Of a DNA stretch of 40,975 nucleotides, positions 2,125-26,818 are shown in pieces (position 1 is the stretch's first letter; each line of letters begins with the position of its first letter). The position numbers and the translations under genes are program-made. Origin of the DNA: a virus; IMG/VR virus record IMGVR_UViG_3300035698_006545, positions 1-40,975 of that record; one strand, 5' to 3'. The notes beneath the pieces were generated by a model that made no database searches, was not told the origin of the DNA, and saw nothing but the letters and a program-made list of their open reading frames with translations.

Positions 2125-4713
2125 TTATTTCACCACCGTTAGTATTAGTCCTTGTTTAACTTTGACCAGTTGTTCTTCGTACACTTCTTTTAATTGTGAG
2201 CCTGTGTAACTCTTGTATCTCTCGGAGTTTCTCAGCACCACGAACCTAGTCATGGAGCCGTACTTCCCTCCGTCTTTTTTCCGAATGAAGCACTCCCGCG
2301 GGAGAGTATCTCTGAGCACCCTGCCCACAACAGAGTTGGTGAAGTGTTTAGACTCGCATTCTAACAGGCCCGACATATCAGGCCGAAGATCGGCTGCACG
2401 TAGAGTGTTGGCTAGATCACTTGAGGTCGTGACATCAGCTAAGAAGGCACCCACACGAGCCTCTATGAACACCTCAACAGTGCGTTGCACCGGACTCTTC
2501 GATGAGTCTTGGATGTCGCGCATAAAGTCAGTCACCGGTGGAGCCTCGCCTGGGTTGAAGTCACTCAGGTCAACCACGTTCAATAGGTGGTGAGCAACAG
2601 CCTGCACACCACCACCCTCTTTCATCCATGTCCAGCGGTCGTTCCAATACTCCTTCCACGCAGGGGTCATGTTGCCATCTTCACCGCGGGTGTTGATGTC
2701 AGACCACACCGGATAGAATCTTCTGGAAGGTCCGTTCAACTTCAGTGGTGTCTGTGAGTTGGTGGTCATTGATACATTGACGATGTTGCGAACCATGATG
2801 GGCTTGATCCCTTTCTGGTTCACGCGTAGCTTTTCCGGTGGAGCAGCGGCCAAAGGTTTGAGTTTGTTCGAGATGGCAACAGCCTCGTGGCGATCGCTCA
2901 GCTCTGCCTCGTTGATGTGCAGGTGCTTGTTGCCGAAGATGTAGTCATCGAAGTCTCTGAGTAACTCTTCACCGGCGATCGTCATGTGGTTTCTATTTAA
3001 GATCCAGAGTAGCGCATACAGGATGAAGTCCTTGCCGCCACCCTCTCGTGATCCGAGCATCAGTATGTGATTGATCTTAACATCAGGGTGCCTGATCGTG
3101 TAGGCCATCCACTGCAGGATGTGTTTCTGGTGTGCTCCGTCCCAACCCATCGCTTTGAAGTGGTCCAAGAATCTAGTAACGTCACCCTCAACACCGCTGC
3201 GTTCAGAGCTGCGATCCCATGAGTTTCCGTAGGTGATGCCGTCCTCTATAAAAATGCGAGACTTCAGGGGTGCGTAGTCCAAGCGATCAACCTTCGTCAC
3301 TGCTCCTCCTTCGAGAGCATTCGTTCGAGCATCTGAGTCTGCGTGAGAGTTAGTATTCTGGTACGCCTCTGGTGTGTAGAATATTTGCTTGCATGGGTTG
3401 TAGAACTGGTTTTGCTCACCGACGAACATCACGTTATCGAAGAAGTCGTGCTGAACTTTCTTGTCCTCGTACCACTCTTTCCTCAAGCTGGCGATCACTG
3501 CTTTGAATTGAGTCTGGTTCCAACCCATAGTGTGACAGATGTCTTTGTGGATGCCGATCTTCTCTATCTCAGGCATGGTGTCTGCAATCTTGAGAATCTT
3601 AGTAGAGTATTCCATAGCCTCAGTTGAGGACGGACTGACCATTTTGAGAAGGTTCATCACCTGACTCATCATGGGCTCAGGCTTAGCAGGATTGGGAGTG
3701 GCTGCTGGTTGAGGTGCTGCTGTTTGGGGTGCTACTGGTTGAGGTGTCTCAACCCCCGGTGATAAAATGTCAGCGAACTCGCGCATGACTTGGAACTCTT
3801 TCATTGCTGAGCCGAAGTTGGGATCAGTCTCTTCGATGTAGAAAATCAGATCCCCACCGGTGCGCTCCTGACATGCACCGTGGTGACACTTGAACCCGAT
3901 GGAGCCATCCTCGTTGGTGAAGATAGCAGCACCGTTGTCAGCACCTTCAGTGTGCTCGTCAACCCAAGGGCACTCAACCTCATACCTGCCTTTGCTCAGG
4001 GTTGATTTGATTTTTAGAATGTCAGGTATAGAAAGCAGGGGGTGGTTGTCAATCTCAGCGGCACCATCGACACGGCCTTCCCTACGCTCAACATCTAGGT
4101 TCACGTTGAAGGGTTCAGCCAGTGCCTCAAGTGTTGTTGTGAGCGCAGGCTCCCACTTCAGCATGCGACACTGGAACGGCTTGCCGTCGATCAGTCTCTT
4201 GGCTTTGTTGTTGACACCTTCAGGTAGTCGCACGTAGCGAGTGACACCCTTCATGCCTGGGTCTTTACCGTCAGGTGCGAGACCTTGAGCCACCAGTCCA
4301 TCGAGCAGGTTCTCAACGCGGTGTCGATCCGCGCACGGCTCAGTAAGTAGATACCCCCACTGCTCTGACCCATCAGATGTTTCTAGGACGTAGGTGGGTG
4401 AGGGGAGCTTCTCGACCTGGCTCATCGGCAGCTTCTCTTTCACGTCATCGAGCACGATCAGATTGGTGTGCCTAAATAGAGACTTTCTTCGTCGAGCTTT
4501 CTCTTCATCGTCAGCATAGAAGCAGCTGATTGTAAAGTATTGATTGGACTGCTCAGCGAAACGGTATCGGCTGAAGTAGTCTCCTGCCCATGCGGCCATG
4601 TGCCTGTCAGCAGGAATATTCTCTGGGTCGTACTGGAAGTCGGTGACATGACTCCATGCTGCGTCATCACCGAATATCGCAGTCATGAAATCGAAGTTGC
4701 TTAATGTAACCAT
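2125..4713 (-). CDS. Primase-helicase: RepB/AEP-type primase fused to a D5-like (DUF5906) helicase
   Basis: This 862-residue protein combines priming and unwinding for replication. The N-terminal part has LIVLDDVKEK, an ETSDGSEQWGYLL block and RYVRLPEGVNNKAK, as in RepB-like archaeo-eukaryotic primases. A zinc-binding-like segment follows (CPW...EHT...FKCHHGAC). A Pro/Ala-rich linker separates the helicase part, with Walker A-like GSREGGGKDF, an acidic strand ending HINEAEL, and a sensor-like MTTNSQTP as in D5/DUF5906 ATPases. I place the start at 4713 (ATG, AAGGA about 11 bases upstream); an open extension to 4866 runs through the leader hairpin and promoter and is not credible. It is unusual in facing opposite to all other replication genes. 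Domain calls are from motifs only. Confidence 0.85.
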   Translation of the reverse strand: MVTLSNFDFMTAIFGDDAAWSHVTDFQYDPENIPADRHMAAWAGDYFSRYRFAEQSNQYFTISCFYADDEEKARRRKSLFRHTNLIVLDDVKEKLPMSQVEKLPSPTYVLETSDGSEQWGYLLTEPCADRHRVENLLDGLVAQGLAPDGKDPGMKGVTRYVRLPEGVNNKAKRLIDGKPFQCRMLKWEPALTTTLEALAEPFNVNLDVERREGRVDGAAEIDNHPLLSIPDILKIKSTLSKGRYEVECPWVDEHTEGADNGAAIFTNEDGSIGFKCHHGACQERTGGDLIFYIEETDPNFGSAMKEFQVMREFADILSPGVETPQPVAPQTAAPQPAATPNPAKPEPMMSQVMNLLKMVSPSSTEAMEYSTKILKIADTMPEIEKIGIHKDICHTMGWNQTQFKAVIASLRKEWYEDKKVQHDFFDNVMFVGEQNQFYNPCKQIFYTPEAYQNTNSHADSDARTNALEGGAVTKVDRLDYAPLKSRIFIEDGITYGNSWDRSSERSGVEGDVTRFLDHFKAMGWDGAHQKHILQWMAYTIRHPDVKINHILMLGSREGGGKDFILYALLWILNRNHMTIAGEELLRDFDDYIFGNKHLHINEAELSDRHEAVAISNKLKPLAAAPPEKLRVNQKGIKPIMVRNIVNVSMTTNSQTPLKLNGPSRRFYPVWSDINTRGEDGNMTPAWKEYWNDRWTWMKEGGGVQAVAHHLLNVVDLSDFNPGEAPPVTDFMRDIQDSSKSPVQRTVEVFIEARVGAFLADVTTSSDLANTLRAADLRPDMSGLLECESKHFTNSVVGRVLRDTLPRECFIRKKDGGKYGSMTRFVVLRNSERYKSYTGSQLKEVYEEQLVKVKQGLILTVVK

Positions 4714-4770
4714 TACACGTAGAATCCTTGTCTGTTGTCCCGGCTCTCTACCGGTTATGTGTGGACCTTG

Positions 4771-4798
4771 GCCCCTTGAAATATAGGGGCTTTTTTTT
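4771..4798 (+). terminator. Intrinsic terminator reading rightward
   Basis: The stem GCCCC (4771-4775) pairs with GGGGC (4786-4790) around a 10-base AT-rich loop, followed by eight T. The T-tract follows the hairpin only on the plus strand. No plus-strand gene ends here, so it probably stops antisense transcripts coming from the left early genes, insulating the promoter of the replication operon. The same hairpin lies in the leader of the minus-strand primase transcript. Confidence 0.7.
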
Positions 4799-4844
4799 GC
4801 TCTGAAGAAATGCTCCTGCTTTGTTAACTCGAAATCAGTCCTGC

Positions 4845-4873
4845 ATACTACACCTAATCTTCCCAAAGCTCAA
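4845..4873 (-). promoter_or_regulatory. Candidate sigma70 promoter for the leftward primase operon
   Basis: On the minus strand, TTGAGC (4873-4868) and TAGTAT (4850-4845) are separated by 17 bases; each matches four of six consensus bases. Transcription would begin near 4838 and give a leader of about 125 bases containing the hairpin at 4771-4790. It is divergent from the plus-strand promoter at 4908. Weak by sequence, supported by position. Confidence 0.35.
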
Positions 4874-4907
4874 TGTGTTAGACATCTGTCGTAGTAGTAA
4901 CCTTTGT

Positions 4908-4936
4908 TTGACATCCTCTCACAACTGCTTCATACT
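4908..4936 (+). promoter_or_regulatory. Sigma70 promoter for the replication operon
   Basis: A perfect TTGACA (4908-4913), a 17-base spacer and CATACT (4931-4936, four of six) lie about 35 bases upstream of the first rightward gene. The phage encodes no recognisable RNA polymerase, so use of the host holoenzyme is expected. The promoter lies just past the terminator at 4771-4798. Confidence 0.6.
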
Positions 4937-4971
4937 CGCCCCTCACTTAATTTTTAAAGATGGAGAAACCG

Positions 4972-5175
4972 ATGGGCTTAGAATCACGAGTCTCATTCCG
5001 ATGCACCGATGAAACATTGTCCAGGTTTGAGGAGCAGTGTAAAAACTACGACCGCGACTCGGCTGATGTTCATCGTGAAATGATGGATGCGTTCAGCGAA
5101 GGTAAGCTGACCATATCTGTTTCCAAAGATAAAAAAACTCTGATGAAGGGGGTCCACATTGTCGATAGAAAATAA
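4972..5175 (+). CDS. Ribbon-helix-helix-like small DNA-binding protein
   Basis: This is a 67-residue protein. The ATG at 4972 has GGAG six bases upstream; an in-frame ATG at 4960 lacks a site. ESRVSFRCTDETLSRFEEQC resembles the strand-helix start of Arc/CopG-type ribbon-helix-helix proteins, followed by a second helix (SADVHREMMDAFSEG). It is the first gene after the replication promoter, so autoregulation of that promoter or of the divergent primase promoter is plausible. The end overlaps the next gene by 17 bases. The fold is judged by pattern and length; no operator was identified. Confidence 0.65.
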   Translation: MGLESRVSFRCTDETLSRFEEQCKNYDRDSADVHREMMDAFSEGKLTISVSKDKKTLMKGVHIVDRK

Positions 5176-10620: not shown

Positions 10621-10937
10621 TGGGAGTTAACGAAAATCCAATTGAACTGCACTTCAACTCAGAAGTTGCTGCGCTCGGTGGCATCACCTACAAGTGGGTG
10701 TCACCGGGGCGAGCCAATGTCCCTGATCGAATAGCCATCCTCAACGGCAACGTGTACTTCGTTGAAGTGAAGCCGTTCGATAAGGATCTGAACACAGGTC
10801 AGAGAAGAGAACTAAGAAGACTTGCGTCCTACGGTGCGAATGTTTACGCAGTGATAGGAAGACAAGGTGTCAACACATTCATAGAGATGATAAAAAATGC
10901 TCCTGCAGCCAAAAGACTTTTACCAATACCAGCGTGA
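10620..10937 (+). CDS. VRR-NUC domain nuclease
   Basis: The 105-residue protein is a single VRR-NUC domain of the PD-(D/E)XK superfamily. An N-terminal Glu helix (PIELHFNSEV) leads to GGITYKW, then VPDRIAILNGNVYFVEVKPF with the catalytic Asp and Glu-x-Lys, and a Gln helix (TGQRRELRRLASYGA). Such stand-alone phage VRR-NUC proteins are structure-specific nucleases, probably acting on branched DNA during replication or packaging. The start overlaps the previous stop (TAATG), and its last 41 bases overlap the helicase gene. Motifs are complete, so it should be active. Confidence 0.88.
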   Translation: MGVNENPIELHFNSEVAALGGITYKWVSPGRANVPDRIAILNGNVYFVEVKPFDKDLNTGQRRELRRLASYGANVYAVIGRQGVNTFIEMIKNAPAAKRLLPIPA

Positions 10938-13329
10938 AGCGATAACTCACCAGCTCACCCATGACAAGTCGATGTTGTGGCTGCAGATGGGTCTGGGTAA
11001 AACGCCAATCTCACTCACCACCATCGTTGACCGCATGCGAGCAGGCACGGTGAAGAAGACTCTCATCTTCGGACCACTCCGAGTGATCCACTCTGTGTGG
11101 GCAAAGGAAGCACGGAAGTGGGAGCACACTAAGCACCTCAGATTCAGTGTTATGCACGGCACACCTCAAGATAGAACACGAGCCATGTTTGCTGACGCTG
11201 ATATATTCCTGTGCAACTACGAGAACATGAACTGGTTGGCTGAGCAGCTTGACCACTTCTACCTGAGTCAAGGTAAAGAACTTCCCTTTGAGTTTGTAAT
11301 CTACGATGAGATCTCGAAGCTGAAGAACGCGCAGACTCGACGCATGAAGGGTGGCACTAGAATTAAAAAAGACAAACTCGACAACGAGTACAAAATCAAA
11401 CTCACCGGTTGGAGGAAGATGGTTCCCCACTTCAAGTTTGCCAGTGGTCTCACCGGGACACCTGCACCCAATGGGTATCTGGATCTGCACGGACAGTACC
11501 TAGCGATCGATGGGGGGAAGAGACTTGAGCCTACGATCACCGCTTACAAAGACAACTACTTCACCAGTGATTACAACGGGTGGAAATACACACCCACGAA
11601 GGCTGGTGCTCAGTGGATCGAGCACAAGATCAGCGACATCACCATCAAGATGGACGCAGCTGACTATCTGGATATGCCTGATGTGACAACCATCAACATA
11701 ATGGTGGATCTCCCAGCTAGTGCTAGGAAAGCGTACAAAGAAATTGAGAAGGAGATGTTCACTCAGCTGGAGAATGGCAACGAGATCGAAGTGTTCAGCA
11801 GGTCCAGCGTGTCGAATAAATGCCTGCAGTTCTGCGTAGCCGGTGACACTGAGGTGCTCACCGATTCAGGGTGGAAGCAGATTCAACACTTCAACAGCAA
11901 CGATAAAATCTGGGATGGGGTTGAGTGGTCAAGTGTCCACAGTCTTGCTTTTAATGGAGTCAAAGAAGTGATAGAATGTGACGGTGTGTTCATGACACCA
12001 GATCACAAAGTGTTGACGGTGTCCGGTTGGGTAGAAGCAGAGGATATATCAAATGGTGATGCCAGCGAAAGATTTGACCGGGCAAAAGTTAGGCTACCTA
12101 GTGGTTATAAAGAGAGCAGGCTCGACAACGGGAAAAGCGAAAAGAGCAAAATGGTTAGTGCATTGTATTTGTGGGAAAGTATTCGAGGCTATTGGTCAGA
12201 ACTTAAGGAATCCCCATCGACCTGGAATAAAGTCATGCGGTTGTCGCAGAGGGGAAGCTATATTGCAGCAGACGGGGTCTCATGGAATGGCGAAGACTCG
12301 ACAATACACAAGTTGGATAAACATGAGGTCTCGCTGCAGGAATCCGAAAGACAAGGACTATCCAAACTACGGCGGTCGAGGAATCACAGTGTGCGACGAA
12401 TGGTACGATTCATTCTCAGCATTTTGGAAGGACATGGGAGTGACCTACCAAAATCATTTAATGATAGAGAGAGTGGACAACAACAAGAACTATTGCAAAG
12501 AGAATTGTCGCTGGGCCACTCAAATGAGGCAGTCGAACAACACCCGATCGAATGTGCTAATCAATACACCGATTGGAAGGGTAACGGTGACTCAGGCTGC
12601 TCGGCGGTACAAACTGAAGGATGGAACCATCTTTGCCAGAATGAGGAGGGGTTGGAAAGAAGCAGATCTAATTCTCCCCGCAGGATCGAAAAAGTCTATG
12701 ACCTAATCAATGCCGGTGTACGCCATCGATTCACCGTGCGCGGTAAGAATGGTGAAGTTTTTATTGTTCACAACTGCAACGGCTCACCGTACATTGGCGA
12801 GACCAAAGAAGTTGAATACTTGCACGGTGTCAAGATCGATGCACTAGAAGAGATCCTGGAGGGTGCCGCGGGAAAGCCTGTCCTATGCAGCTACACGTTC
12901 GTGAGTGACGCTGAGAGGATCATGAAGAAATTCGGGAAGAAGTATAGGGTCGTTGATCTAACGAAGACTAAGGCCAGCCTGACAGAGGCTGTGATCGAAC
13001 GGTGGAATCGCGGTGAGATCGATCTGATGGTTGGGCATCCGGCATCAATGGGACACGGTATCGATGGACTCCAAGAAGCAGGAAGCATCATAGTGTGGTT
13101 CGGTGTGAACTGGTCCTTGGAGTTGTATGAGCAGATGATAGCTCGATTGAATCGCAATGGTCAGACTAAGCCAGTGTCAGTGATCAGGATCTTGTGCAAC
13201 GACACCGTCGATCTCGCTGTGGCAGATGCCATTGAACGCAAGACCGACGATCAGGAAGGGTTGAAGGCAGCTCTGCAGCGATACCGTGAAGGCATCACCA
13301 CGAATGATCTATCGGTGAACTTCTTTTAG
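10897..13329 (+). CDS. SNF2/DEAD-like helicase interrupted by an intein
   Basis: The precursor has 810 residues; removing the intein (residues 313-626) leaves a 496-residue superfamily 2 helicase. Motifs: YQREAI, MGLGKT (31-36, Walker A), VIYDEISKL (motif II, DEIS), SGLTGTPAPN (motif III), GHPASMGHGIDGLQ (motif V) and QMIARLNRNGQTKPV (motif VI with both Arg). Extein residues rejoin as KCLQF-CNGSPYIG, a natural continuation matching the LQ...NGA-Y segment of phage homologues. It probably remodels DNA or forks during replication. It starts inside the VRR-NUC gene with only a weak ribosome site, so translational coupling is likely. It is the last gene of the operon and ends five bases before the convergent fibre chaperone. 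Confidence 0.85.
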   Translation: MLLQPKDFYQYQREAITHQLTHDKSMLWLQMGLGKTPISLTTIVDRMRAGTVKKTLIFGPLRVIHSVWAKEARKWEHTKHLRFSVMHGTPQDRTRAMFADADIFLCNYENMNWLAEQLDHFYLSQGKELPFEFVIYDEISKLKNAQTRRMKGGTRIKKDKLDNEYKIKLTGWRKMVPHFKFASGLTGTPAPNGYLDLHGQYLAIDGGKRLEPTITAYKDNYFTSDYNGWKYTPTKAGAQWIEHKISDITIKMDAADYLDMPDVTTINIMVDLPASARKAYKEIEKEMFTQLENGNEIEVFSRSSVSNKCLQFCVAGDTEVLTDSGWKQIQHFNSNDKIWDGVEWSSVHSLAFNGVKEVIECDGVFMTPDHKVLTVSGWVEAEDISNGDASERFDRAKVRLPSGYKESRLDNGKSEKSKMVSALYLWESIRGYWSELKESPSTWNKVMRLSQRGSYIAADGVSWNGEDSTIHKLDKHEVSLQESERQGLSKLRRSRNHSVRRMVRFILSILEGHGSDLPKSFNDRESGQQQELLQRELSLGHSNEAVEQHPIECANQYTDWKGNGDSGCSAVQTEGWNHLCQNEEGLERSRSNSPRRIEKVYDLINAGVRHRFTVRGKNGEVFIVHNCNGSPYIGETKEVEYLHGVKIDALEEILEGAAGKPVLCSYTFVSDAERIMKKFGKKYRVVDLTKTKASLTEAVIERWNRGEIDLMVGHPASMGHGIDGLQEAGSIIVWFGVNWSLELYEQMIARLNRNGQTKPVSVIRILCNDTVDLAVADAIERKTDDQEGLKAALQRYREGITTNDLSVNFF
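11833..12774 (+). other. Intein in the helicase, 314 codons, overprinted by an HNH gene
   Basis: Splicing blocks are all visible. Block A is CVAGDTEVLTDSGWKQIQ with nucleophile Cys1, and block B is GVFMTPDHKVLT with the Thr-x2-His pattern. Block F is KVYDLINAGVRHRFTV, and block G is GEVFIVHN followed by extein Cys (+1) at 12775. The recognisable Hint domain is about 73 N-terminal plus 30 C-terminal residues, a minimal size. The roughly 210 codons between are stop-free but show no LAGLIDADG or HNH motif in this frame. Instead a homing endonuclease is encoded there in the +1 frame. Splicing competence looks intact by residues. Confidence 0.88.
12053..12706 (+). CDS. HNH-type homing endonuclease nested out of frame in the intein
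   Basis: This is a complete 217-residue protein in the +1 frame relative to the helicase. It begins MVMPAKDLTGQKLGYLVVIK, matching the usual start of free-standing phage HNH proteins, then a zinc-ribbon-like pair (CICG and SCGC). Next is WINMRSRCRNP, then YGGRGITVCDEW, and the nuclease core RVDNNKNYCKENCRWAT. It ends with an HTH-like repeat region and RRGWKEAD. An AGAGG site lies nine bases before the ATG at 12053; a second ATG at 12059 is possible. Its stop falls at the start of intein block F. It probably cuts intein-less helicase alleles and so drives homing of the intein. Family pattern is clear; the target site is unknown. Confidence 0.88.
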   Translation: MVMPAKDLTGQKLGYLVVIKRAGSTTGKAKRAKWLVHCICGKVFEAIGQNLRNPHRPGIKSCGCRRGEAILQQTGSHGMAKTRQYTSWINMRSRCRNPKDKDYPNYGGRGITVCDEWYDSFSAFWKDMGVTYQNHLMIERVDNNKNYCKENCRWATQMRQSNNTRSNVLINTPIGRVTVTQAARRYKLKDGTIFARMRRGWKEADLILPAGSKKSMT

Positions 13330-13333
13330 GGGT

Positions 13334-13924
13334 TTACAGCGCTGCCAGCGCGGCCTCTGCAGCGTCTAGCTCATCATTGTCTGTGGCAGCCTCTATCAAG
13401 GCTGTCACCGCATTGAACTGGTAAAACAGAGCATCTTTACGGTCCGCCAAAACCGAGAATGACGCCAACAATTTCGCTGAAGTCATTGAAATCTCTTCTT
13501 TTCCTACAGTTGTAAACGTCATTAACTCTTGAGCTTTCCCAGTGGAAACATTTATAAAAGCCTTCAAGGTCTTATCCCCGATATTCGCCCGATCCGAGTC
13601 ATTACGAAAGTGAATCTCTTTTTCATCCACTGGAAAAGGAACAACTATATTAGAGTAGAACTTTTCTCTTTTCTCTTTTTTGGCTCTAGCTAGAAGCTCG
13701 ACTCGCCTTTTTTCAACATCTGGCACAGGGTGCGCCCACGACCCTTCGTAATAGGTTGACTCCCCGAAAACGGTTTCTTTTGGAATCGAAGCCAGATGTA
13801 ATACACTTGCGCTCTTAGTGGTTGTTCTTGGGTCAGAAAAGCCATTTCCAAAAAATCCTTTTGAGCTAAGCGAGCCGCCTGAATACAGCGCAACATTGTC
13901 GGAATTTCTTACTATAATTTGCAT
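13334..13924 (-). CDS. Tail fibre assembly/chaperone-like protein (DUF4376-like C-terminus)
   Basis: This 196-residue protein is encoded directly after the fibre gene, the classical place for a fibre chaperone. The C-terminal half (about 95-196) has a strand-rich start, a NDSDRANIGDKTLKAF segment, FTTVGKEEISMTSAKLLASF and a helical tail rich in Ala/Asp. This resembles DUF4376-type fibre-associated proteins. The N-terminal part is Ser/Gly-rich. It is convergent with the helicase, with only four bases between the two stops, and no terminator is visible there. The role is inferred mainly from position. Confidence 0.6.
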   Translation of the reverse strand: MQIIVRNSDNVALYSGGSLSSKGFFGNGFSDPRTTTKSASVLHLASIPKETVFGESTYYEGSWAHPVPDVEKRRVELLARAKKEKREKFYSNIVVPFPVDEKEIHFRNDSDRANIGDKTLKAFINVSTGKAQELMTFTTVGKEEISMTSAKLLASFSVLADRKDALFYQFNAVTALIEAATDNDELDAAEAALAAL

Positions 13925-16689: not shown

Positions 16690-19600
16690 TTATTCTCTGG
16701 TGGGGCCAAACGATAATTGCCTTGCTGTCAAGTCCTCACCTTCTTCAAGAACCTCGTACAAATGCTCACCTGTGGCCCATGCCTGGTTGACCCCAGGCAC
16801 ACCCAACGAGGCACCAACCAGCTTGCTCACTGCTTTGATCTCACCCTTCGTCAACTCCTCATCCGTAACCAGAGCCTCCACCACACTTGGGATGCGCGTG
16901 AGACCCTGCTCAAGCACTGAGGCTACAGGTGTCATGTTGTACCCATATTCCCCTGCAATGCCGCTGGCTGCATCTCTGACGAAGGGGATCGATGCGAACG
17001 GGTACAGTGCCAGTCGAGTCAGAGTCTTCCGGTAGACCTCATCCTCGTCATCATCCCCACCGAACTCACCGCGCATCAACATTTCCAGAATGACCGGTAC
17101 AACAATGATGAACGCCGCTTTTGCCGCGATAGTGGTTGGGGTATCTAACCCTGACTTCGCACTGCGAGCTGTATCACGTTGCTGGTTCCACAACGAGCTG
17201 AAGAAGGTCATGAACATGGTGAAGGTGGTGTGAGTCTTTGACTGGTTTCTCATAATGCGAGCCATGTCCTTCGTCGCACCTGAACCTTGCACATTCTCGA
17301 TCAACCAATCAGCGTAAGCGAATGCTTTCTTCTCATCACCGGAGAGCTTCATCTCTTTGATGTACGCCGCATACCACGACGGTAGATCCACACTGTAGAT
17401 CTGAATCAGTGCAATGTGCTTCATTGACGCTTCTTGCACTGCAGCGATCGCGCCGCGCTTGCCTTCAAGCTGCTTCATCGCATTACCAATCTCACGATCC
17501 ATTGTGGTAGTTCTGTGCTTGAGCACTTTGGAGTTCTCATTGGCAAATGTCCACGCTTCCTGAATAGTCTTAGGACTACCCATGATCGCACCGAACGCTT
17601 GCATCATGTTCCCCAAACCAACCTCAGCAGTTGAGTTAGCCAATCCCAGTGTCTGCATCAGACCAGTTGTTACTTTGAATCCCATCACACCCAGAGTTAC
17701 GCCGAATCTTAGCTTCTGGAATACTGAGTCGATAAACGTCTTAGTCGGTGCAGCAGATCCTAATTTTGCAATGTCATTCAACCACGGCTTCAACTCTGCA
17801 AACTCTTCAGGTCCGAGCTTCCTTGAGATGGTGTTGGAAATCGTCTTGTTCCTGATCAGCTTGTTAAGCTGACGGACAGCATCGTGGTGAGTGATGAAGT
17901 GGATTGTCTCTTGGAAGTGATTCGGCACAATAGACAAATCCAGCAGCACCGGCGCATAGAATCCTGTACGCTCATTCGTAGACGATGCGTTGACAGATGA
18001 TTGAATGCTGCCGGTGGTGCTGAACATGGAGTCAACTCGCGCTGCGGCATCTTCTTCATTCTTACGAGCCACATCAGATCGAGCCGGGTCATACTTCACC
18101 GGGTAGTATCCCCCTTTCAAAGTTCTCTGCTCACCATCCACGTCGATGCTGAACGACTGTTCCTGAACCTTCGGTGGTACTAGACCTGTTGTTTTGCGAT
18201 GCACTTCAGCAAGCTGAGGATAAAGAAGATCCATCTGTTGCCAGATCAACTCAACAAGATCCCACTCCTCCCCGGTCATCTCTGCAAGCACAGCCTGGAG
18301 TTGGGGATTGTCGATGGTGATCGTGGTGTCATCTTCTTTGTTAGCCCAACCTTCACCAAGTAGCATCTTTCTCAGGTTGCTCTGGTTACCGGTGTTGAGT
18401 GCAACAGCGATAATCTGGTTACCCATAAGGTTACCGTCATTCTTGTCATCCTTGATCTCAGGGATGAAGAACTTGGTCATGCCTCGCTTCACCGCTGCAC
18501 GAGAACGGTCACTGATCGCATCAGTCACAACACCGGTGACAGCACCCATCATTTCGATTTCGTTGAACAACGCTTCGTTCAAACCACTCATGAGAATCTC
18601 ATGGCTCATGCCTGCGCGTTCGCCACCGTCAAGCCACGATGCCATCCAAGGAATCTTGCTCATCTGAGCCATTGCCCAGCGACCGGTGTTACGACCCTTC
18701 GTTGCATCAGTTCTCTGCGGTACGAACTTGTCTTTCGCTACAGTATTGAGGTGAGTATCCCACCGCTGAACCAGTTGTTCGAATGCAATCTCTTCACCGT
18801 AAAGATCCATCTTCGTCGCGTAACGTGCAACGTGCTCAATGTTCTTAACTGACTCATTAATCCCTAACAGCGAATCGTAGGGGACATTCTTCCAGTGAGT
18901 TTGGTACGCTTCATCAAGAACTTCCGGTGACAACACTAAACCGTCACCCTCAAGCTCCATCATCTGACTCATCCAGACATTCAGGCTTTCATTCTTCTGA
19001 TCCACCGCAGTGAGGGTGGCAGACTTTCTAAATTCGAATCGACTAAGGATCTTGACCAACTGTTCCCAGTAGCCGTTCTCAGCTTTCATTATTTCTTCAC
19101 GCACAGACTTCTTGTTGTACCGCTTCATGCGATCAACAATCTTCAGCGTGTTGTTCCTGGCATCTGTTGCTGCTTTCGCTAGGTAGAAGTTCAGGATCTC
19201 ACGCGACTTGGCACGAGAGGCTGCAGCCATATCACCTTGAGCCTGAGCGACCGCTGCTTCTTTCCCTGCGATCTCTTTGGCCTTCTGGTACTTACCAGGT
19301 TGGATCTGTCTGAACGCCAGCTTGCCGATGTTCTCTTCAGCCAATTGCTTTATGGCCTGACGTGCCAGAGTAGGAGCACCGGCAGTCTTATTGATTTGCT
19401 TCAGCTCGCGCAGTAAGAGCTTGCCTCGCTCTTCGTTCTGTAGAGCCTCAGTTGCCTGCTGCTCAATAGTACCGTCGTTCAGGATGTCACCGTGGGTCTC
19501 AAGCATGCGAGCCTCAGCAGCAGCCTCAGCAGCCTGCTTGATCGGTGCAGACTCGATTATGTCAGTGAGCATCTCGTCACCGGAGTTGTACTCCAGGAAT

Positions 19601-22600
19601 GCTGCAGCTTCATCAGGATGCACACTGTCAGCTCCTGCAGCCAACATGCCGTTGAGTCTCTCAGGGATTCTTACTGACTTGATGCCGCGCTTATCGACTC
19701 GCTCTTCACCGAGTAATTCACGCACGACACCTTTGTCAATTTTAAGATCTGTGCTACGCAGGGCAGTGATTGCCCTGTAGACTTTCTCCTCACGCAGACG
19801 AGCAGTCTCTTCGACCACCATGTCTGCCTTCTCTTCCTTCCACCAGGACTTAGTTTGTCGGGTAAGTTCCTTGATAACCTTCTCGCGAAGGGTCTCTGAT
19901 TCAACATCTTTGGCGGTCGAAACATTTTTCTGATACTCAACGAATGCAGCATCAGTCATGCCTGCCATCGTTGCATCAGTGAATAGGGGTTGAACTTGCT
20001 CACGAGCACGAGCCATATCAAGCTGTTCTTCAGTCGCTAGCATGCGATCAAAGACAGCCCTCATATCATCTGTTAGGTTGATGTTCAGGTTGCCTTGTAT
20101 TCTTTTGTACACCTCAGCAAGCCATCGAGCGAAGGTTCTGAAAACATTCCTCAACTCTACCGATGGTGCCTTACCCTCCATCAGGTACGCCTCGAACCCA
20201 CGAGCGAACTGCTCATGTGTCGCACGTCGAAGCGCAGCGTCTTTGTCTACGTCACCGGTGGACGCTTGATCGATGAACTGGTTCACATCATCTTCGGTGA
20301 TTCTGCCAGTTTGCCCTTGAGGGATTTCAGTGTCTTGCCTGAGTGGGGTGAGTGTTTCAAACACACCAGCAACCATACCCATGCGACCATTGATGCTCCA
20401 GAATCCAAGGTACCCTGCTTCCTTGATCGCGGCCTCATAGTTGGTGAGACCCTTGGTCTTGTCCAACCCATCAGGGTTCGCATTACCGTCATACATTCTC
20501 TCAGCAGGAACGCTCACTATGTATTCGTGGTTGCCTACACCGTACTCTTTTACATACCCGCCCTTCTTGCCAGTCTCAATTCCGTACAGTGTTCGGTTCT
20601 GCCAGTTGGGTTCACTGGATCTGTCTCGCTCACGACCTGCATAGTTGCTGCCGTAGAACTCAGGATCAAGATTCTCAAGCCCCTGCTTCTTGGAGTAGTG
20701 CTCAAGGATGATCTGACCGCCAACAACCGGTGGCCGAGTCAACTTACCGCCCTTATCCCTTCCTGTTGTGTCGGCCTTCTTCTTATCGTTTACCTTGCCC
20801 TCTTCAGATACCCATAGAGGCATCAGTCCTGTTTTTTGATCTGCGTACACTGTGTCAGCAGCAGTTGCTGTTCTGTTCTTCTCACCGTGGGGGCCGAAGT
20901 TCACCCATGAGTTTTGACCCCTGGTCTCAGAAGTCATTGCTCTTAGTGCTAACGGACTATACATGGTTGCATGAGACTGCCACGCATTCTCTTCACCCTG
21001 TGCTCTAAATCCGTTGCCGTTCTTCACATGTCCGAAGTAGTCATGGACAACTCTGAATATGTCGTTGACTAGAATCTTTTCGCCGCTGATTTCAAAATCA
21101 GTTTCAGCTAGTAATGGGTTATCAGACACATCAACCTGCTCGTCGGAGCCAAACCCTTCACGAGTTGAGTACACGTACAGGTGGTTGTTTTTAACAACAT
21201 CTTCGATCGCTAACCGTGGGGTTTTGGCATAAGGATCTTCGCCGCGGATGAAATCGATCTGCAGGCCAGATGCCAAAACCTCTTCATACTGAGCGATTGT
21301 CTCTTCAATCATCGCAGCGTAAGCAGCTTTGACTTCAGGGTTCTGAGGATCGTGCTCCATGTTTTCATATTCGACAGCGATCCTCGCAGCACGATCACGA
21401 TCCAATACGGCATGCTCCACATTGTCCTCGTACTTGAGGCCAGCTTTCTCAGCGTATCGCTTAGCCACATCTCTTGCCAACTGGTGAGGTGTATCTTGGG
21501 GTTGCTGAAGATCACCGGCGACCTTACTCTCTAAATAGCCATTGGCTTCGTTAGCAACCTCTACAGCATTGCCCTTGAACCACTTTCCAATGTCAGTAGC
21601 GTTCTTCGACCCAGCTTTCAGCTCCTGCTCGTACATGAAGTGTGCGAACTCATGCAGGAATGTTGACAGGTCAGAGGCTTCAGCTAACCGTATTACTGAG
21701 TTGTCTGGGTTGAAGTATCCACGGGCTGACTTATCGTCTTCAATATCGCTTCGCTGTTCAAAGGCTGGCTCTCCACTAGGTCGTGTTGCACCTGCAGGTC
21801 GTCCCTCCCCAACAGTGGATGCTGGGCGTTCAAGTCGTTGATCTGCGAGTTTTCTGAATTCTTGCTCATAATCTGTTGCCTCTACTCTTGCGGCACGTAT
21901 GCCATTATTGATGTACAGGTCTTTCTCTGCGTACCATAACAGTGCTTGTATGGTTGCAAGATCCAGATCCTGACCTTTATCAGCGAGCTTCTGTTGAGTC
22001 TCCTTCATCACCTCGCGCATCCAAACACGATTTCCACCGTTCTTAGGATCGATGATTGGAGCGGTAACACCCTCAACGAGATTCTTGCTTTGCTTATTCA
22101 CATCAGACTTGTCTTTGAATTTGCTGGCTGTATACCTGCCGTGGTATATCTGAGCGAACTCCATCAGAGACTCATCGTTCTTCATCAACTGAGGTCGTTT
22201 GAATCCGAACAGCCCCTTCACCGGTAGACCCTTGATGGTCTCTCTCAGTTTAGCTGCTCGTTCTGGGAACGCCTTCTCAAAGACAGGAACTTGTGTTCCA
22301 GTCATACGACCCCACGTTCTCATGAACCATCGGTCCATTGTTACGTGGTTGAAGTTACCGACCAGGTTCTGGAAGAAGATCCCAACTTTGGGTCCGAACA
22401 CAGCAGAGGTAGGTACAGTCTGATCGACATTCTCACCGTTGAGGTTGAATCCCATTTCTGCAAGTTCTTTGACGGTTCTGGGTGTGTTCAGGAATTCTTG
22501 AACATTCTCCAGACCCATCATCTCAACCAGCTCATTGAACCGTTTGAAACCTTTAACCATTGCACCGGCTTCTTTGCCGAAACCTTCTTCTGGAATTCGA

Positions 22601-25089
22601 CCGGTCTCTTTGTACTTGTTGTACGTGAACTCTGCGTTGCGTGAGTTCTCCTGAACTGAAGCACCGTTGGAAGTTATTGCCATGATCACTTTGAAAACAG
22701 TCATGGCATTAGCATCTGTCGCTAGTTCAGGATGCATCTGTGCAGCGAACTCCATTGCAGAGGCAATCGATTGCTTGTACCACTGAGCAGCATTCGAACC
22801 TTCACCTACAGCAGCGATGGTCTCTTCAACCAACTGATCTGAGATGATCTCCTTGTTCTCTGGAGTCTTCGCATCAAGTCGCTTGCCGTGCTTGTCGAGA
22901 ACTTCCTGATCGAACTTCGCAGCCAGATCCCTAACAGTTGCAGTGGGTACTGCTGATTGAAAAAATGCATCATCAATTGGAATGAACACACCCAGCTTTC
23001 GCATGGCTCTGATGGCATCTTCTTTCGGGTCACCGGTTGTTTCTTTCTGCACGGACAACGACCCTTCAGACAGAACCGTTGAGAAGAATTGTTGAAGCTC
23101 GCTGCCTGTCAAATCTCTTATATCTGCGTTTGCTTCATCTGACAAAAGTTGCAAATCATCTTCACTAAATTGTTTCTCTATTTTCTTGATCGTAGCTTCT
23201 GGAACTTCCTGCTCTGACAACGATCGAGTCAAATCCAAAGGAATCATGTTCTCAGTAGGCTCGTTGAAGTCAGTGAAGAACTCTTTCGTTTTCTGCAGCA
23301 ATGACTTCTGCTGATCCAGATCTTCCTTCACACCGGTCTGTGGTCCGACAATGGTGAGACCGGACTGCTCGTAGGCTTCCTGAATAGTGACACCGTTCTC
23401 TTTGGCGAAGACAGTAGCCCACGCAGGGACGAGCTGAGCCATCGCTGCAGCGTTCTGTGGCTGAACCTGACCGCTGTCTACCAGCTGAGTACGAACCTCC
23501 TCATAGATCTCCTGAGCCTGCACGTACTCGCTCACGTTCTCCTGAGCCTCAGTCACTAGCTGCTCGATATGTTCTTGAGCTGTGACTCGCGCCTGCTCCT
23601 GAGATTCTGGAGATAACGACCCTTCACTCAGCGTCATCGATCCACGCAGAGCTTCAAAGTGGGTGGTGCCCGCGATCACAGTAGCGAATGCAGCAACCGG
23701 GACTGCAACATCTTCACCGGCTATTGTTTGGTCGAGCGATTCCTTCAGCAGGATCAGAGCACCATCGCTGGATATCTCCTGATCAACCAGGTACTCAGCA
23801 ACCTTGTCAGCGTTCAGGTAGACCTGAGTGTTACTGTCACCGTCATTCTGCTGCACGAACTGGTAGAACTTGCTGGGATTTCTCTGCTTGAGTTTGGAGT
23901 CAGTTGCTAAGCGATTGATCTCATCGATCTGATTCTGTTCAACTTCAACTTGCGACTGAGCAATCTCAGCATCGCTAGACAATCGTTGAGGAACGCCCCC
24001 ACCCTTACCGGGTATAGCAGTGAGGATAATACCTCTCACAATTGCACCGACAGATCCTGCTACTGCTGCTTCGTTCCCTATTCCCTCAAGCAAAGGTGCA
24101 TCTGGGTTGGTAGTTTGTTGCTCAATGAAACTCTGAGAAATGTTCTCAACCACTTCCTGAACAGCCTCTATACCACCAGCAAGAACAACATCAATGACAG
24201 CACGAGCTACTTTGTTCTTGATTGCTGGCGGTATACGGTTGAGGATCAGATCCAAGCCCATGCGTTCTGACGCGCCGGTTGCTATGCCACCACCCAACAG
24301 GGCAGCTTCAGCTAAGAGATCTTGACCTTTCGTTCCAGTCTCTTCTTGTCGGTCTGCCTGCAGAGACACACCCGTACCAAACAACATTGGCAATGTCACA
24401 AACGGAGCCACCAGATGCATGACCACCTGACCACCCATTTGACCAACACCTGCCGCAACATCGGTGACAAAGTTCTGGTCTTCAGGATCAGGGGCAATGT
24501 CTTCTGCTGTGTCTCTTATCTTCTGACCTGTGTAATTCAGCAGAGCACCGGCGATTAACCTTACATTGTCACCGTAACTTCTATCTTCGAATTCTTTATT
24601 CCCAGCAGCCACTCTATCTATTGACAGAGCAGTCTCACCGAGACCTTCAACTCCCATCCCGATTGCTTGGAATGGACCAGAGGCCAACCCTCTTACTACA
24701 TTGAATACGCTTTCAAGTTTCTCAAGCACAGGCACATCATCATGAGCCACAGATGCGTTCTCATAGTCGCTGAAGAACTTAGCAGTGTTGGGACTGTTCT
24801 GCGACAGCTGGTCGTAGTCGGTTTTCTGAGAGTCAACGAACTGTTGGACTTGCTCAGGGTTGCTTTTTATAGCCCACTCAGGAATTCCCGATGCTTCAGA
24901 TAGTCGGGTGTTTTCGGATACTTGATCAGGGTTTGCTTTAACAGCCTGAGTCATTGTGGATCTTACTTGCTGTGCTCTTCGATCATTCGGCGCAACGATC
25001 CCACCGTCAACAGGTTTCTTACCATCACCGATAGTTTTGAAATCTACTTTGTCAATGTCGAACTCAAGACCAAAAGTTGTATCAGTCAT
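16690..25089 (-). CDS. Giant internal virion (polyvalent, ejected) protein, 2799 aa
   Basis: I start it at the ATG 25089 (AAGGGA about 10 bases upstream), not at an in-frame TTG 33 bases earlier. Residues about 100-370 hold several Gly/Ala-rich hydrophobic stretches. About 700-1070 is a helical block (KVIMAITSNGASVQENSR to FGPKVGIFFQNLVGNFNHV) resembling domains of DarB-like phage proteins. His1146-Glu-Phe-Ala-His is an HExxH metallopeptidase-like motif. Around 1349 lies HDYFGH, then GEENAW and TRGQNSWVNFG. About 1480-1580 is an ADP-ribosyltransferase-like block (GGYVKEYGVGNHEYIVSVPA). The C-terminal 350 residues include membrane-like segments. Ejected with the DNA, such proteins build the envelope channel and can defend the genome. 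Enzyme roles are inferred. Confidence 0.85.
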   Translation of the reverse strand: MTDTTFGLEFDIDKVDFKTIGDGKKPVDGGIVAPNDRRAQQVRSTMTQAVKANPDQVSENTRLSEASGIPEWAIKSNPEQVQQFVDSQKTDYDQLSQNSPNTAKFFSDYENASVAHDDVPVLEKLESVFNVVRGLASGPFQAIGMGVEGLGETALSIDRVAAGNKEFEDRSYGDNVRLIAGALLNYTGQKIRDTAEDIAPDPEDQNFVTDVAAGVGQMGGQVVMHLVAPFVTLPMLFGTGVSLQADRQEETGTKGQDLLAEAALLGGGIATGASERMGLDLILNRIPPAIKNKVARAVIDVVLAGGIEAVQEVVENISQSFIEQQTTNPDAPLLEGIGNEAAVAGSVGAIVRGIILTAIPGKGGGVPQRLSSDAEIAQSQVEVEQNQIDEINRLATDSKLKQRNPSKFYQFVQQNDGDSNTQVYLNADKVAEYLVDQEISSDGALILLKESLDQTIAGEDVAVPVAAFATVIAGTTHFEALRGSMTLSEGSLSPESQEQARVTAQEHIEQLVTEAQENVSEYVQAQEIYEEVRTQLVDSGQVQPQNAAAMAQLVPAWATVFAKENGVTIQEAYEQSGLTIVGPQTGVKEDLDQQKSLLQKTKEFFTDFNEPTENMIPLDLTRSLSEQEVPEATIKKIEKQFSEDDLQLLSDEANADIRDLTGSELQQFFSTVLSEGSLSVQKETTGDPKEDAIRAMRKLGVFIPIDDAFFQSAVPTATVRDLAAKFDQEVLDKHGKRLDAKTPENKEIISDQLVEETIAAVGEGSNAAQWYKQSIASAMEFAAQMHPELATDANAMTVFKVIMAITSNGASVQENSRNAEFTYNKYKETGRIPEEGFGKEAGAMVKGFKRFNELVEMMGLENVQEFLNTPRTVKELAEMGFNLNGENVDQTVPTSAVFGPKVGIFFQNLVGNFNHVTMDRWFMRTWGRMTGTQVPVFEKAFPERAAKLRETIKGLPVKGLFGFKRPQLMKNDESLMEFAQIYHGRYTASKFKDKSDVNKQSKNLVEGVTAPIIDPKNGGNRVWMREVMKETQQKLADKGQDLDLATIQALLWYAEKDLYINNGIRAARVEATDYEQEFRKLADQRLERPASTVGEGRPAGATRPSGEPAFEQRSDIEDDKSARGYFNPDNSVIRLAEASDLSTFLHEFAHFMYEQELKAGSKNATDIGKWFKGNAVEVANEANGYLESKVAGDLQQPQDTPHQLARDVAKRYAEKAGLKYEDNVEHAVLDRDRAARIAVEYENMEHDPQNPEVKAAYAAMIEETIAQYEEVLASGLQIDFIRGEDPYAKTPRLAIEDVVKNNHLYVYSTREGFGSDEQVDVSDNPLLAETDFEISGEKILVNDIFRVVHDYFGHVKNGNGFRAQGEENAWQSHATMYSPLALRAMTSETRGQNSWVNFGPHGEKNRTATAADTVYADQKTGLMPLWVSEEGKVNDKKKADTTGRDKGGKLTRPPVVGGQIILEHYSKKQGLENLDPEFYGSNYAGRERDRSSEPNWQNRTLYGIETGKKGGYVKEYGVGNHEYIVSVPAERMYDGNANPDGLDKTKGLTNYEAAIKEAGYLGFWSINGRMGMVAGVFETLTPLRQDTEIPQGQTGRITEDDVNQFIDQASTGDVDKDAALRRATHEQFARGFEAYLMEGKAPSVELRNVFRTFARWLAEVYKRIQGNLNINLTDDMRAVFDRMLATEEQLDMARAREQVQPLFTDATMAGMTDAAFVEYQKNVSTAKDVESETLREKVIKELTRQTKSWWKEEKADMVVEETARLREEKVYRAITALRSTDLKIDKGVVRELLGEERVDKRGIKSVRIPERLNGMLAAGADSVHPDEAAAFLEYNSGDEMLTDIIESAPIKQAAEAAAEARMLETHGDILNDGTIEQQATEALQNEERGKLLLRELKQINKTAGAPTLARQAIKQLAEENIGKLAFRQIQPGKYQKAKEIAGKEAAVAQAQGDMAAASRAKSREILNFYLAKAATDARNNTLKIVDRMKRYNKKSVREEIMKAENGYWEQLVKILSRFEFRKSATLTAVDQKNESLNVWMSQMMELEGDGLVLSPEVLDEAYQTHWKNVPYDSLLGINESVKNIEHVARYATKMDLYGEEIAFEQLVQRWDTHLNTVAKDKFVPQRTDATKGRNTGRWAMAQMSKIPWMASWLDGGERAGMSHEILMSGLNEALFNEIEMMGAVTGVVTDAISDRSRAAVKRGMTKFFIPEIKDDKNDGNLMGNQIIAVALNTGNQSNLRKMLLGEGWANKEDDTTITIDNPQLQAVLAEMTGEEWDLVELIWQQMDLLYPQLAEVHRKTTGLVPPKVQEQSFSIDVDGEQRTLKGGYYPVKYDPARSDVARKNEEDAAARVDSMFSTTGSIQSSVNASSTNERTGFYAPVLLDLSIVPNHFQETIHFITHHDAVRQLNKLIRNKTISNTISRKLGPEEFAELKPWLNDIAKLGSAAPTKTFIDSVFQKLRFGVTLGVMGFKVTTGLMQTLGLANSTAEVGLGNMMQAFGAIMGSPKTIQEAWTFANENSKVLKHRTTTMDREIGNAMKQLEGKRGAIAAVQEASMKHIALIQIYSVDLPSWYAAYIKEMKLSGDEKKAFAYADWLIENVQGSGATKDMARIMRNQSKTHTTFTMFMTFFSSLWNQQRDTARSAKSGLDTPTTIAAKAAFIIVVPVILEMLMRGEFGGDDDEDEVYRKTLTRLALYPFASIPFVRDAASGIAGEYGYNMTPVASVLEQGLTRIPSVVEALVTDEELTKGEIKAVSKLVGASLGVPGVNQAWATGEHLYEVLEEGEDLTARQLSFGPTRE

Positions 25090-25093
25090 TTTA

Positions 25094-26818
25094 TTATTGT
25101 TTCCCTTGTCTATACGCTTCAATGAGGTTCTCTGAAGTCACTGGTATGCCATCGTCAACAAGCCTATCAATAATCGGCTTGAAGAACCCCATAGTTTCAC
25201 CAGTGACTGGTGTGTTGTCTATTCCTTCCAGAGCACCTGCGATGTCATCGTAGTATTGACCTTCAATGTCTTTCAGTCCGTATTCAGCATCGTAGTAAAA
25301 AAACGCATCTTCGAATGTCTTAGTGATCGCCAGCTGACCGAGCATATTGTCCATCTCTGCACTGGTCATATCACGCCCATCGTTATCCTCTTTCCACTTA
25401 ACTTGTTCGGCGGTGATTAGAGCGTAGTACGCATTGACTTGTTCTCTCTGTCTATTGCTGTAATCTTTCGGTGTTGACTTACCAAATCCGAAGGTGCTGT
25501 TGATCGCAGCAGTAACCTGAGCAGTTTCGCTTCTGCCTAATTGAGAGTCGGAACCACTTCGCGCAGACTTCACCGCGGTGGTTAGCTTGCTAATATCAGC
25601 GTTAGCGAATACACCGACATAATCTGAAGGGGTGACTTTTGCCAACTTGCCCTGCGGAAGCAACAGAATATCAGACAACTGAGCAAAGTCAGTGACTGGT
25701 GATGTGCCAGCCTTCAGTGTAGATTGTTGGGCGGCGCTCATCGCATCCCAGCCTTCTGGGTTAGCAGATATAAACTGATCAATTGATCCACCTTCAGGGT
25801 CAGTCAAGAATTTCAACCCATCGTCGTAAGTGGCAGCTGCGAACTGTGAGTCGGCTATTTGCTTCTGGTTCAGCTGGTAAGCGAACTCACGATGAGCTGC
25901 AGACCTTTCAACCGGGTCACTGTACTTCTCATTGATTTCTGCTGTGCCCAGTGTTTTAGCGTTAGGCAGATCACCCAAACGATTAACTAAGTCAGTGGAC
26001 GATATCACCGCGCCTTCAGCAGCCTGTTGAGTTCGCTCAGTCTTCCTGGCTCTCTCAATACTGATCTGCAAGTTAACCCGCGATGGCCCTTCTATCGATT
26101 CTGAGAACTCGTTGAGCGCAGACTCACCGGCGATCGCACTAACCGACAATGCAGACTCAACAACAGCGATTGAGAACTGTGAGTCGTAAGTCTCGACAGA
26201 CTCTGCGATTGTCTCTGGTGAGTCACCGTTCATCCCACCCAAATTTTTAATGTGCTCGATGCCCAGCCCTCGCTGAACATCAGCCACTGCCGGATCATCC
26301 CAGTACAGAGATGCAGCCTCAATGGTGTTCTCAATTTGAGCACCGAGGGTGGTTCTTTCATGCTCATCGAACTGGGAGACAGCGTGTTGATCAATACTCC
26401 CAATTGCACGAGTCATCTGTGCATCGGTGTTCTTGTTGAAAAGACTGCGAGCACGAGTTGAGCTTATGTCATCTGAATACTTTCGGCGCAGTTTCTCTAA
26501 CTCTTCTTTGCTGTTATCAGCTGACTCAAATGCATCTTTGCCGCGAGTTGTAGAATAGTTAGTTAGGAATGCGTTCTTCTCTCGCTCGAACCCTACGATT
26601 GAATCTTCAGCAGTGTTGAGGTCTACACGCTCTGCGAACCGAGCAATCTCATCAGAGAAATTCTTAATGCCACCACCCACATTGCTGATGGCTTGTCCTT
26701 CAACACCCGCGTTAGGGGTAGCCACACCGAACGTACCCTGAGAGACATTGCTTCTCCGAGCTGCCGACGCTACTGTGCTACCTACTTTTGATGCACCGTA
26801 TGGTGTCACTGTTGGCAT
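25094..26818 (-). CDS. Internal virion protein, 574 aa (T7 gp15-like position)
   Basis: The protein is strongly helical and rich in Ala, Ser and Glu, with long charged helices in the first 200 residues (EELEKLRRKYSDDISSTRAR). It has no signal peptide or clear membrane span. I see no transglycosylase motif. It sits between a smaller Ala-rich internal protein and the giant protein, the order typical for podovirus ejection proteins, so it is probably part of the inner core released into the host. AGGAAA lies seven bases before the ATG. Its stop is 4 bases from the giant protein's start. Role inferred from context. Confidence 0.75.
   Translation of the reverse strand: MPTVTPYGASKVGSTVASAARRSNVSQGTFGVATPNAGVEGQAISNVGGGIKNFSDEIARFAERVDLNTAEDSIVGFEREKNAFLTNYSTTRGKDAFESADNSKEELEKLRRKYSDDISSTRARSLFNKNTDAQMTRAIGSIDQHAVSQFDEHERTTLGAQIENTIEAASLYWDDPAVADVQRGLGIEHIKNLGGMNGDSPETIAESVETYDSQFSIAVVESALSVSAIAGESALNEFSESIEGPSRVNLQISIERARKTERTQQAAEGAVISSTDLVNRLGDLPNAKTLGTAEINEKYSDPVERSAAHREFAYQLNQKQIADSQFAAATYDDGLKFLTDPEGGSIDQFISANPEGWDAMSAAQQSTLKAGTSPVTDFAQLSDILLLPQGKLAKVTPSDYVGVFANADISKLTTAVKSARSGSDSQLGRSETAQVTAAINSTFGFGKSTPKDYSNRQREQVNAYYALITAEQVKWKEDNDGRDMTSAEMDNMLGQLAITKTFEDAFFYYDAEYGLKDIEGQYYDDIAGALEGIDNTPVTGETMGFFKPIIDRLVDDGIPVTSENLIEAYRQGKQ

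Follow-up and report, generated by a model that had tools for sequence, protein, structure and literature searches.

Conventional inteins carry a homing endonuclease domain (LAGLIDADG or HNH) in their own reading frame, and mini-inteins and split inteins are taught as derived forms. Fractured genes, in which a free-standing endonuclease lies between the Hint-N and Hint-C halves of a split intein, were reportedly described by Dassa et al. in 2009. A further arrangement is the ShiLan domain, or Pacc40 hidden HNH, in which an HNH endonuclease is encoded out of frame within a phage methylase of mycobacteriophages; its authors concluded that the domain, which lacks splicing motifs and an intein fold, is not an intein or an intron and is retained in the protein (Arsenault, Gosselin, Gogarten 2025, PMC11855218). 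Here we analyse a viral DNA of 40,975 nucleotides (IMG/VR record IMGVR_UViG_3300035698_006545; hereafter the window), in which a SNF2-type helicase gene is interrupted by a predicted class-1-type intein, the middle of which also encodes an HNH-type endonuclease gene in the +1 frame (Table 1). We consider it very probable that this is a homing intein with an overprinted endonuclease, one mRNA giving two products. The data agree with the original prediction, made from the letters of this DNA, of a contiguous intein containing an out-of-frame and apparently separately initiated HNH-type open reading frame (ORF).

The locus resembles conventional inteins in its Hint domain, in having the endonuclease between block B and block F, and in its presumed homing, but its endonuclease has an ATG and a stop of its own in another frame, leaving a linker in the intein frame. 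With fractured split-intein genes it shares a separate endonuclease gene; the window nevertheless has one contiguous intein overlapping the nuclease, within a single helicase frame that is open end to end, and not two ORFs bearing half an intein each. The HNH-type ORF of the window is surrounded by a Hint splicing domain, which that of ShiLan is not.

Table 1. Coordinates of the intein-interrupted helicase gene and its parts in the window
Feature	Position	Strand	Basis
SNF2-type helicase gene, intein-interrupted	10897..13329	+	Pfam SNF2-rel_dom 2.5e-13, Helicase_C 3.5e-06; PHROG DNA helicase 3.5e-120
Intein, 314 aa, Cys1 ... His313-Asn314, then Cys+1	11833..12774	+	intein_Nterm, AlphaFold2 Hint fold, homologues
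Hint N-terminal part, intein residues 1-90	11833..12102	+	pLDDT 94-97 (residues 1-70), 71-88 (residues 71-90)
AGAGG, candidate ribosome-binding site of the nuclease, 9 nt before ATG	12039..12043	+	read directly
HNH-type endonuclease gene, 217 aa, +1 relative to the intein	12053..12706	+	PHROG HNH families; AlphaFold2 mean pLDDT 90.1; weak I-HmuI match E=0.034
Intein-frame linker, residues 91-279, predicted disordered; nuclease encoded over it in +1	12103..12669	+	pLDDT, conservation
Hint C-terminal part, residues 280-314, blocks F and G, ...VYDLINAGVRHRFTV...VHN	12670..12774	+	pLDDT 93-95
Cys+1 of the C-extein; insertion point ...LQF|CNGSPY...	12775..12777	+	sequence, intein-free alignment

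The coordinates of intein and HNH ORF are exactly those first predicted, as is the full set of splicing blocks (Cys1, TPDH, HN|Cys+1). The intein occupies codons 313-626 of an 810-aa helicase precursor, its match to NCBIfam intein_Nterm exceeds the cut-off, and the Hint N-part gives sequence matches to the NEQ068 and Mtu RecA mini-inteins. Block B reads T55-P56-D57-H58 at 11995-12006; Cys1, His58 and Asn314 are invariant, and TxxH and HN|Cys conserved, among 44 intein homologues. A search for intein-free and mini-intein homologues, suggested at the outset, found both. Removal of the intein leaves a predicted 496-aa helicase that aligns with intein-free Vibrio phage helicases, among them the 498-aa protein of Vibrio phage 1.185.O across the junction NKCLQF|CNGSPY, and an uninterrupted helicase is also encoded by dozens more IMG/VR helicase genes. 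Terminal splice residues, a modelled Hint fold and in-frame insertion relative to intein-free homologues together point to a class-1-type intein that is predicted to splice.

An AlphaFold2 model of the intein frame, built with 44 homologues, has a Hint fold with predicted local distance difference test scores (pLDDT) of 94-97 over residues 1-70 and 93-95 over residues 281-314, lower scores at 71-95, and scores mostly below 50 over residues 96-277. The best Foldseek matches of this model are the DnaX, DnaB, gp41-1 and RecA mini-inteins. The model suggests a Hint fold interrupted by a disordered linker over the stretch that encodes the nuclease, and the same DNA read in the nuclease frame gives a confidently modelled protein (Table 1).

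The intein frame has no stop codon across the nuclease gene. Under a null model in which the HNH amino acids and codon usage were held fixed and synonymous codons permuted, 12.3 stops are expected in the window and none is seen; not one of 1000 permutations was stop-free, and a chance ORF is ruled out by this test. The original estimate, (61/64)^217 = 3e-5, was arithmetically right, but the present null is the better one. The third frame, taken as a control, shows no depletion (22 stops seen, 19.1 expected). Across 46 homologues the intein frame has no stop where 351 are expected, a tally that must be discounted to the extent that the 46 tests share ancestry and hence are not independent, diverged though the homologues are; their control frame has a mean of 13.4 stops against 12.8 expected. 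Stops in the intein frame of homologues had been named as an observation that would count against the arrangement, and the frame is open in 46/46 inteins that embed an HNH gene. Pooled over all searches, 185 near-full nuclease relatives divide into 51 (counting copies) that have no intein-frame stop and 134 that have between 2 and 44, with none having one; the host frames of the open-frame relatives bear Cys1 and [H/S]N|Cys boundaries, and it is the free-standing HNH relatives that carry 2-44 stops in the corresponding frame.

Both frames had been said to be kept open, which is correct, but they are not equally constrained. Over nuclease codons 21-205 the pairwise conservation of the linker stays at the level forced by the nuclease (0.17-0.28 seen, 0.16-0.27 expected; e.g. 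0.275 vs 0.272), and it rises above that level (0.314 vs 0.196) at nuclease codons 1-20, which also encode Hint-adjacent residues. Identity to the two nearest homologues is 29-38% in the linker and 66-67% in the Hint parts. Selection on the linker peptide itself was considered and rejected, none being seen outside the first 20 nuclease codons. Since conservation of the linker does not exceed what the nuclease frame imposes, the linker is probably selected mainly for the absence of stops, and most of its sequence seems hardly to matter; a stop there would presumably be harmful, since the helicase or polymerase would be truncated.

The nuclease itself matches PHROG HNH-endonuclease families (phrog_374, E=8.6e-58), bearing out the claim of a complete HNH ORF, and HNH PHROG matches are found for 44/44 of its homologues. 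These are diverged (34-72% identical to the window HNH), keep the frame open, and share invariant Cys, His, Asn and Trp positions, Asn151 and Asn163 among them. The protein has paired CxC/CGC cysteines (zinc-finger-like, CxCG...CGC) in its N-terminal part, its core matches HNH families, and its C-terminal region holds a helix-turn-helix, which Pfam detects in some family members. In its modular build and C-terminal DNA-binding helix-turn-helix it is like I-HmuI, to whose core it gives a weak match; the two differ in that the active-site His of I-HmuI is aligned to Arg here and the window nuclease is not intron-carried.

As to expression, Shine-Dalgarno (SD)-like energies at the start codons of the family average -7.1 kcal/mol, as against -4.5 kcal/mol at internal in-frame starts (p=1.6e-11), and internal initiation at the nuclease start is the likeliest route. 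Several observations nevertheless weigh against a working, internally initiated endonuclease. The predicted AGAGG site is present in the window, but its energy is ordinary (-5.8 kcal/mol, compared with -5.9 at internal in-frame starts), so that the signal exists at the level of the family; and the SD-like GGxTGG of the polymerase inteins partly reflects the Gly-Trp that is conserved in block B. In the weak I-HmuI alignment (E=0.034), Arg140 stands where HNH nucleases canonically have their first His, Pfam gives no HNH family match to the nuclease, and a Foldseek search with its model returned no solved relative. For these last three reasons 'endonuclease' here denotes family membership, and the predicted catalysis rests on PHROG names and distant similarity.

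The arrangement is not confined to the window, and what is seen there is no single oddity but one member of a family. A nuclease-based search of IMG/VR and GTDB genomes, together with phage isolates, gave 47 distinct inteins (the window and 46 further), of 252-326 aa; each has Cys1, an [H/S]N|Cys boundary and the HNH in +1. The nuclease starts approximately 170-235 nt into the intein and, in intact copies, ends 5-74 nt before the intein end; ahead of the first start codon its frame often stays open for some distance. Host genes of this +1 set, in phages and prophages, encode family A DNA polymerases (insertion sites including GGKL|CEN and VEN|C(T/V)QA), SNF2 helicases (LQF|CNG, QIS|CGA, TQK|CLQ) and terminase-like proteins (loci L060, L078 and L090 in our numbering, assigned by eye). 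Isolates include Caulobacter phages RW, GB2A, RLK and KcrB, Shewanella phage SFCi1 and the Hamiltonella phages APSE. In the polymerase inteins of Jerseyvirus (Salmonella) and Dhillonvirus (Escherichia/Shigella/Sodalis) the HNH lies in +2, and the intein frame is stop-free where 4-5 stops are expected. A second search, independent of the HNH, used only the Hint N-block, with two alignments of overprinted inteins as queries, and so samples their relatives and not inteins overall. It yielded 126 distinct inteins: 65 with an HNH in +1, 35 with an HNH in +2, 12 mini-inteins of 110-167 aa, one with another long alternative ORF, and 13 in which no C block was in frame, owing to contig ends, errors or split loci. 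In none of these 126 related inteins is an HNH found in the intein frame. One decayed example has a single stop in the nuclease frame (L157). Inteins with overprinted endonucleases thus appear to form a widespread family of more than 100 loci, with the nuclease in either alternative frame.

Some individual loci deserve mention. In one polymerase gene (L127, ORF aa 246-365) a mini-intein stands next to an overprinted intein, and further mini-inteins of 110-167 aa (L319, L294, L382 and others) are close kin of overprinted inteins. Another polymerase ORF (L063, 1162-4947) carries two inteins, with an HNH in +2 in the first and in +1 in the second. Four members of the window's helicase family (L249-L252) carry an intein at another site, GHPA|C...HN|SMGHG, with its own +1 HNH, and read ANGSPY, not CNGSPY, at the window's insertion site; in L250 the intein follows ...IGHPA and the HNH spans 4403-5071. 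An intein in a different kind of gene (L341, 3623-4408) has a long +2 ORF (LDRIDN...YEPGNLRF) that was missed by the HNH profile and is possibly a further endonuclease branch.

According to the mechanism we propose, reading of the helicase frame would give a precursor whose Hint domain is interrupted by an unstructured linker of about 190 aa; the Hint halves would fold together, excise the intein and join the helicase to 496 aa. Reading of the +1 frame from an internal start within the intein would give the 217-aa HNH-type endonuclease, which would cleave helicase alleles that lack the intein and thereby cause the whole element to be copied. The stop-free intein frame would be held by selection, since any stop in it would leave an important host enzyme incomplete. 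Working splicing, use of the internal start and cutting of the empty site by the enzyme are all predictions here. One alternative accepts the intein but takes the nuclease frame to be an unexpressed relic or a chance ORF; the ordinary ribosome-binding site of the window, the decayed copy L157 and the fact that nuclease expression is read from sequence would all suit it. We nevertheless think it very unlikely, given a nuclease frame that stays open through 44 homologues with invariant Cys, His, Asn and Trp and HNH PHROG matches in every one, and a linker frame conserved only at the nuclease-forced level. We give similarly little credence to synthesis of the nuclease by ribosomal frameshifting from the intein frame, as an extein-Hint-HNH fusion, in place of internal initiation. 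The often open nuclease frame upstream of the first start codon is what such a route would need, but a single slippery mechanism is unfit for both the +1 and +2 versions, start codons are clustered at +172 to +226 nt with SD-like sequence upstream, and split relatives bear the nuclease as a separate ORF.

That the insert might be a group I intron with an HNH ORF, removed from the RNA and with the host frame accidentally open, is suggested by a note in the record of Sodalis phage SO-1 ('type I self-splicing intron') and by the frequency of HNH genes in phage group I introns. There is, however, no Rfam group I match in 10800-13800, the host frame shows active stop avoidance, and Cys1, TxxH and HN|Cys are conserved in 44 homologues with a predicted Hint fold; we regard an intron as highly improbable. 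Least credible of all is that assembly or sequencing frameshifts displaced an in-frame endonuclease. Such errors do occur within the same element in L007, a near-copy of L006, but the same frame relation recurs in dozens of unrelated contigs and in isolates (APSE-1, Caulobacter phage RW, Shewanella phage SFCi1), and none of the 126 inteins of the Hint-block sample has an HNH in frame.

The bearing of overprinting on split inteins comes from six fractured polymerase loci (L081/L302, L082, L362, L350, L371, L400), split inteins that are related to the window's element and look new. In these the N-part of the polymerase and Hint-N end at a stop, an overlapping HNH ORF follows, and a further ORF starts with Hint-C and bears the C-part of the polymerase; in two of them (L082 and L362) the HNH stop shares an ATGA with the start of the Hint-C ORF. 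In the tree built for the main clade of HNH proteins, three of the split loci lie at three separate places among overprinted ones, which we read as repeated change from the overprinted to the split state. Three changes of state are found in all bootstrap trees and at least two are forced by the starred branches, with moderate support for the backbone. We infer that most split relatives arose from overprinted ones, which supports the earlier suggestion of an intermediate toward split inteins. With the nuclease already encoded as a gene of its own, a break in the intein frame could occur once a start codon for the C-half arises at the nuclease stop, as the ATGA of L082 and L362 illustrates. The homology of both Hint and nuclease parts between the two kinds would equally allow evolution in reverse, with fractured split-intein loci and their free-standing nuclease fused into contiguous overprinted inteins. 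This we judge unlikely: the split loci sit singly inside the overprinted clade, with three changes throughout the bootstrap trees, and to reopen the linker frame, fusion would need to remove many stops (22 in L082, for example).

In a wider tree, the helicase and polymerase +1 HNHs, without the terminase cases, are compatible with one clade (approximately unbiased test, p=0.75), while the terminase cases and those at the second helicase site (L250, L251) are placed apart and the +2 cases form a clade of their own. One wider tree has the first intein row of L124 in the wrong frame, and our conclusions rest on the other trees. A single origin of all overprinted cases was considered and is disfavoured by the separate +2 clade and by the position of the terminase and second-helicase-site cases; overprinting is likely to have had at least two origins. 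Nucleases at different polymerase sites are more alike than their hosts (HNH 0.62, extein 0.35; L063, L125), which fits movement between sites, and the sporadic spread over several genes and sites is consistent with homing. That a free-standing HNH gene invaded a mini-intein, as first suggested, fits the existence of related mini-inteins and of free-standing relatives of the nuclease. We hold as an even proposition the broader view that overprinting is the main endonuclease-carrying mode of a large group of phage inteins, having arisen more than once and in either alternative frame by entry of HNH genes into mini-inteins, and that it is a launch point for split inteins.

The original claim that no such case had been described stands for inteins in that none was found, but ShiLan is a published analogue outside inteins, and overlapping HNH ORFs are annotated in GenBank: APSE-1 P46 (+1) within polymerase P45, and SO-1 gp39 (+2) within gp38. 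These pairs have the same arrangement as the window, as annotation only. The annotated start of APSE-1 P46 (L206, 3431-3853) seems too far downstream, HNH homology beginning near 3203 (GTG), and the +2 HNH polymerase insert of SO-1 (L205), labelled a type I self-splicing intron, looks like an intein. Literature searches, which did not cover a preprint on non-canonical actinophage inteins and so leave priority uncertain, found no paper recognising overprinted-endonuclease inteins as a class, the only precedents being the ShiLan work and one genome announcement. The class is largely unrecognised, and the arrangement itself is not unique to the window. Apart from these loci, 'CRISPR spacers' annotated in the Vibrio phage gene NVP1185O_27 (L004, 2504-2804) are a 27-bp (9-codon) coding tandem repeat with no evident CRISPR array, and the window has a very long ORF of 2810 aa on the opposite strand (16690-25122, -).

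An overprinted endonuclease would explain how an intein can gain, lose or exchange its nuclease without a folded fusion, and would provide, with support from sequence, an intermediate on the way to split inteins and fractured genes. It would also show, in a clean natural case, how two genes can overlap when the main demand on one frame is freedom from stops. The linker, presumably freely exchangeable, may help in building new split or conditional inteins. The arrangement points to a gene class mostly missed by annotation pipelines, in a group that includes the inteins of common Salmonella (Jerseyvirus) and Escherichia/Shigella/Sodalis (Dhillonvirus) phages.

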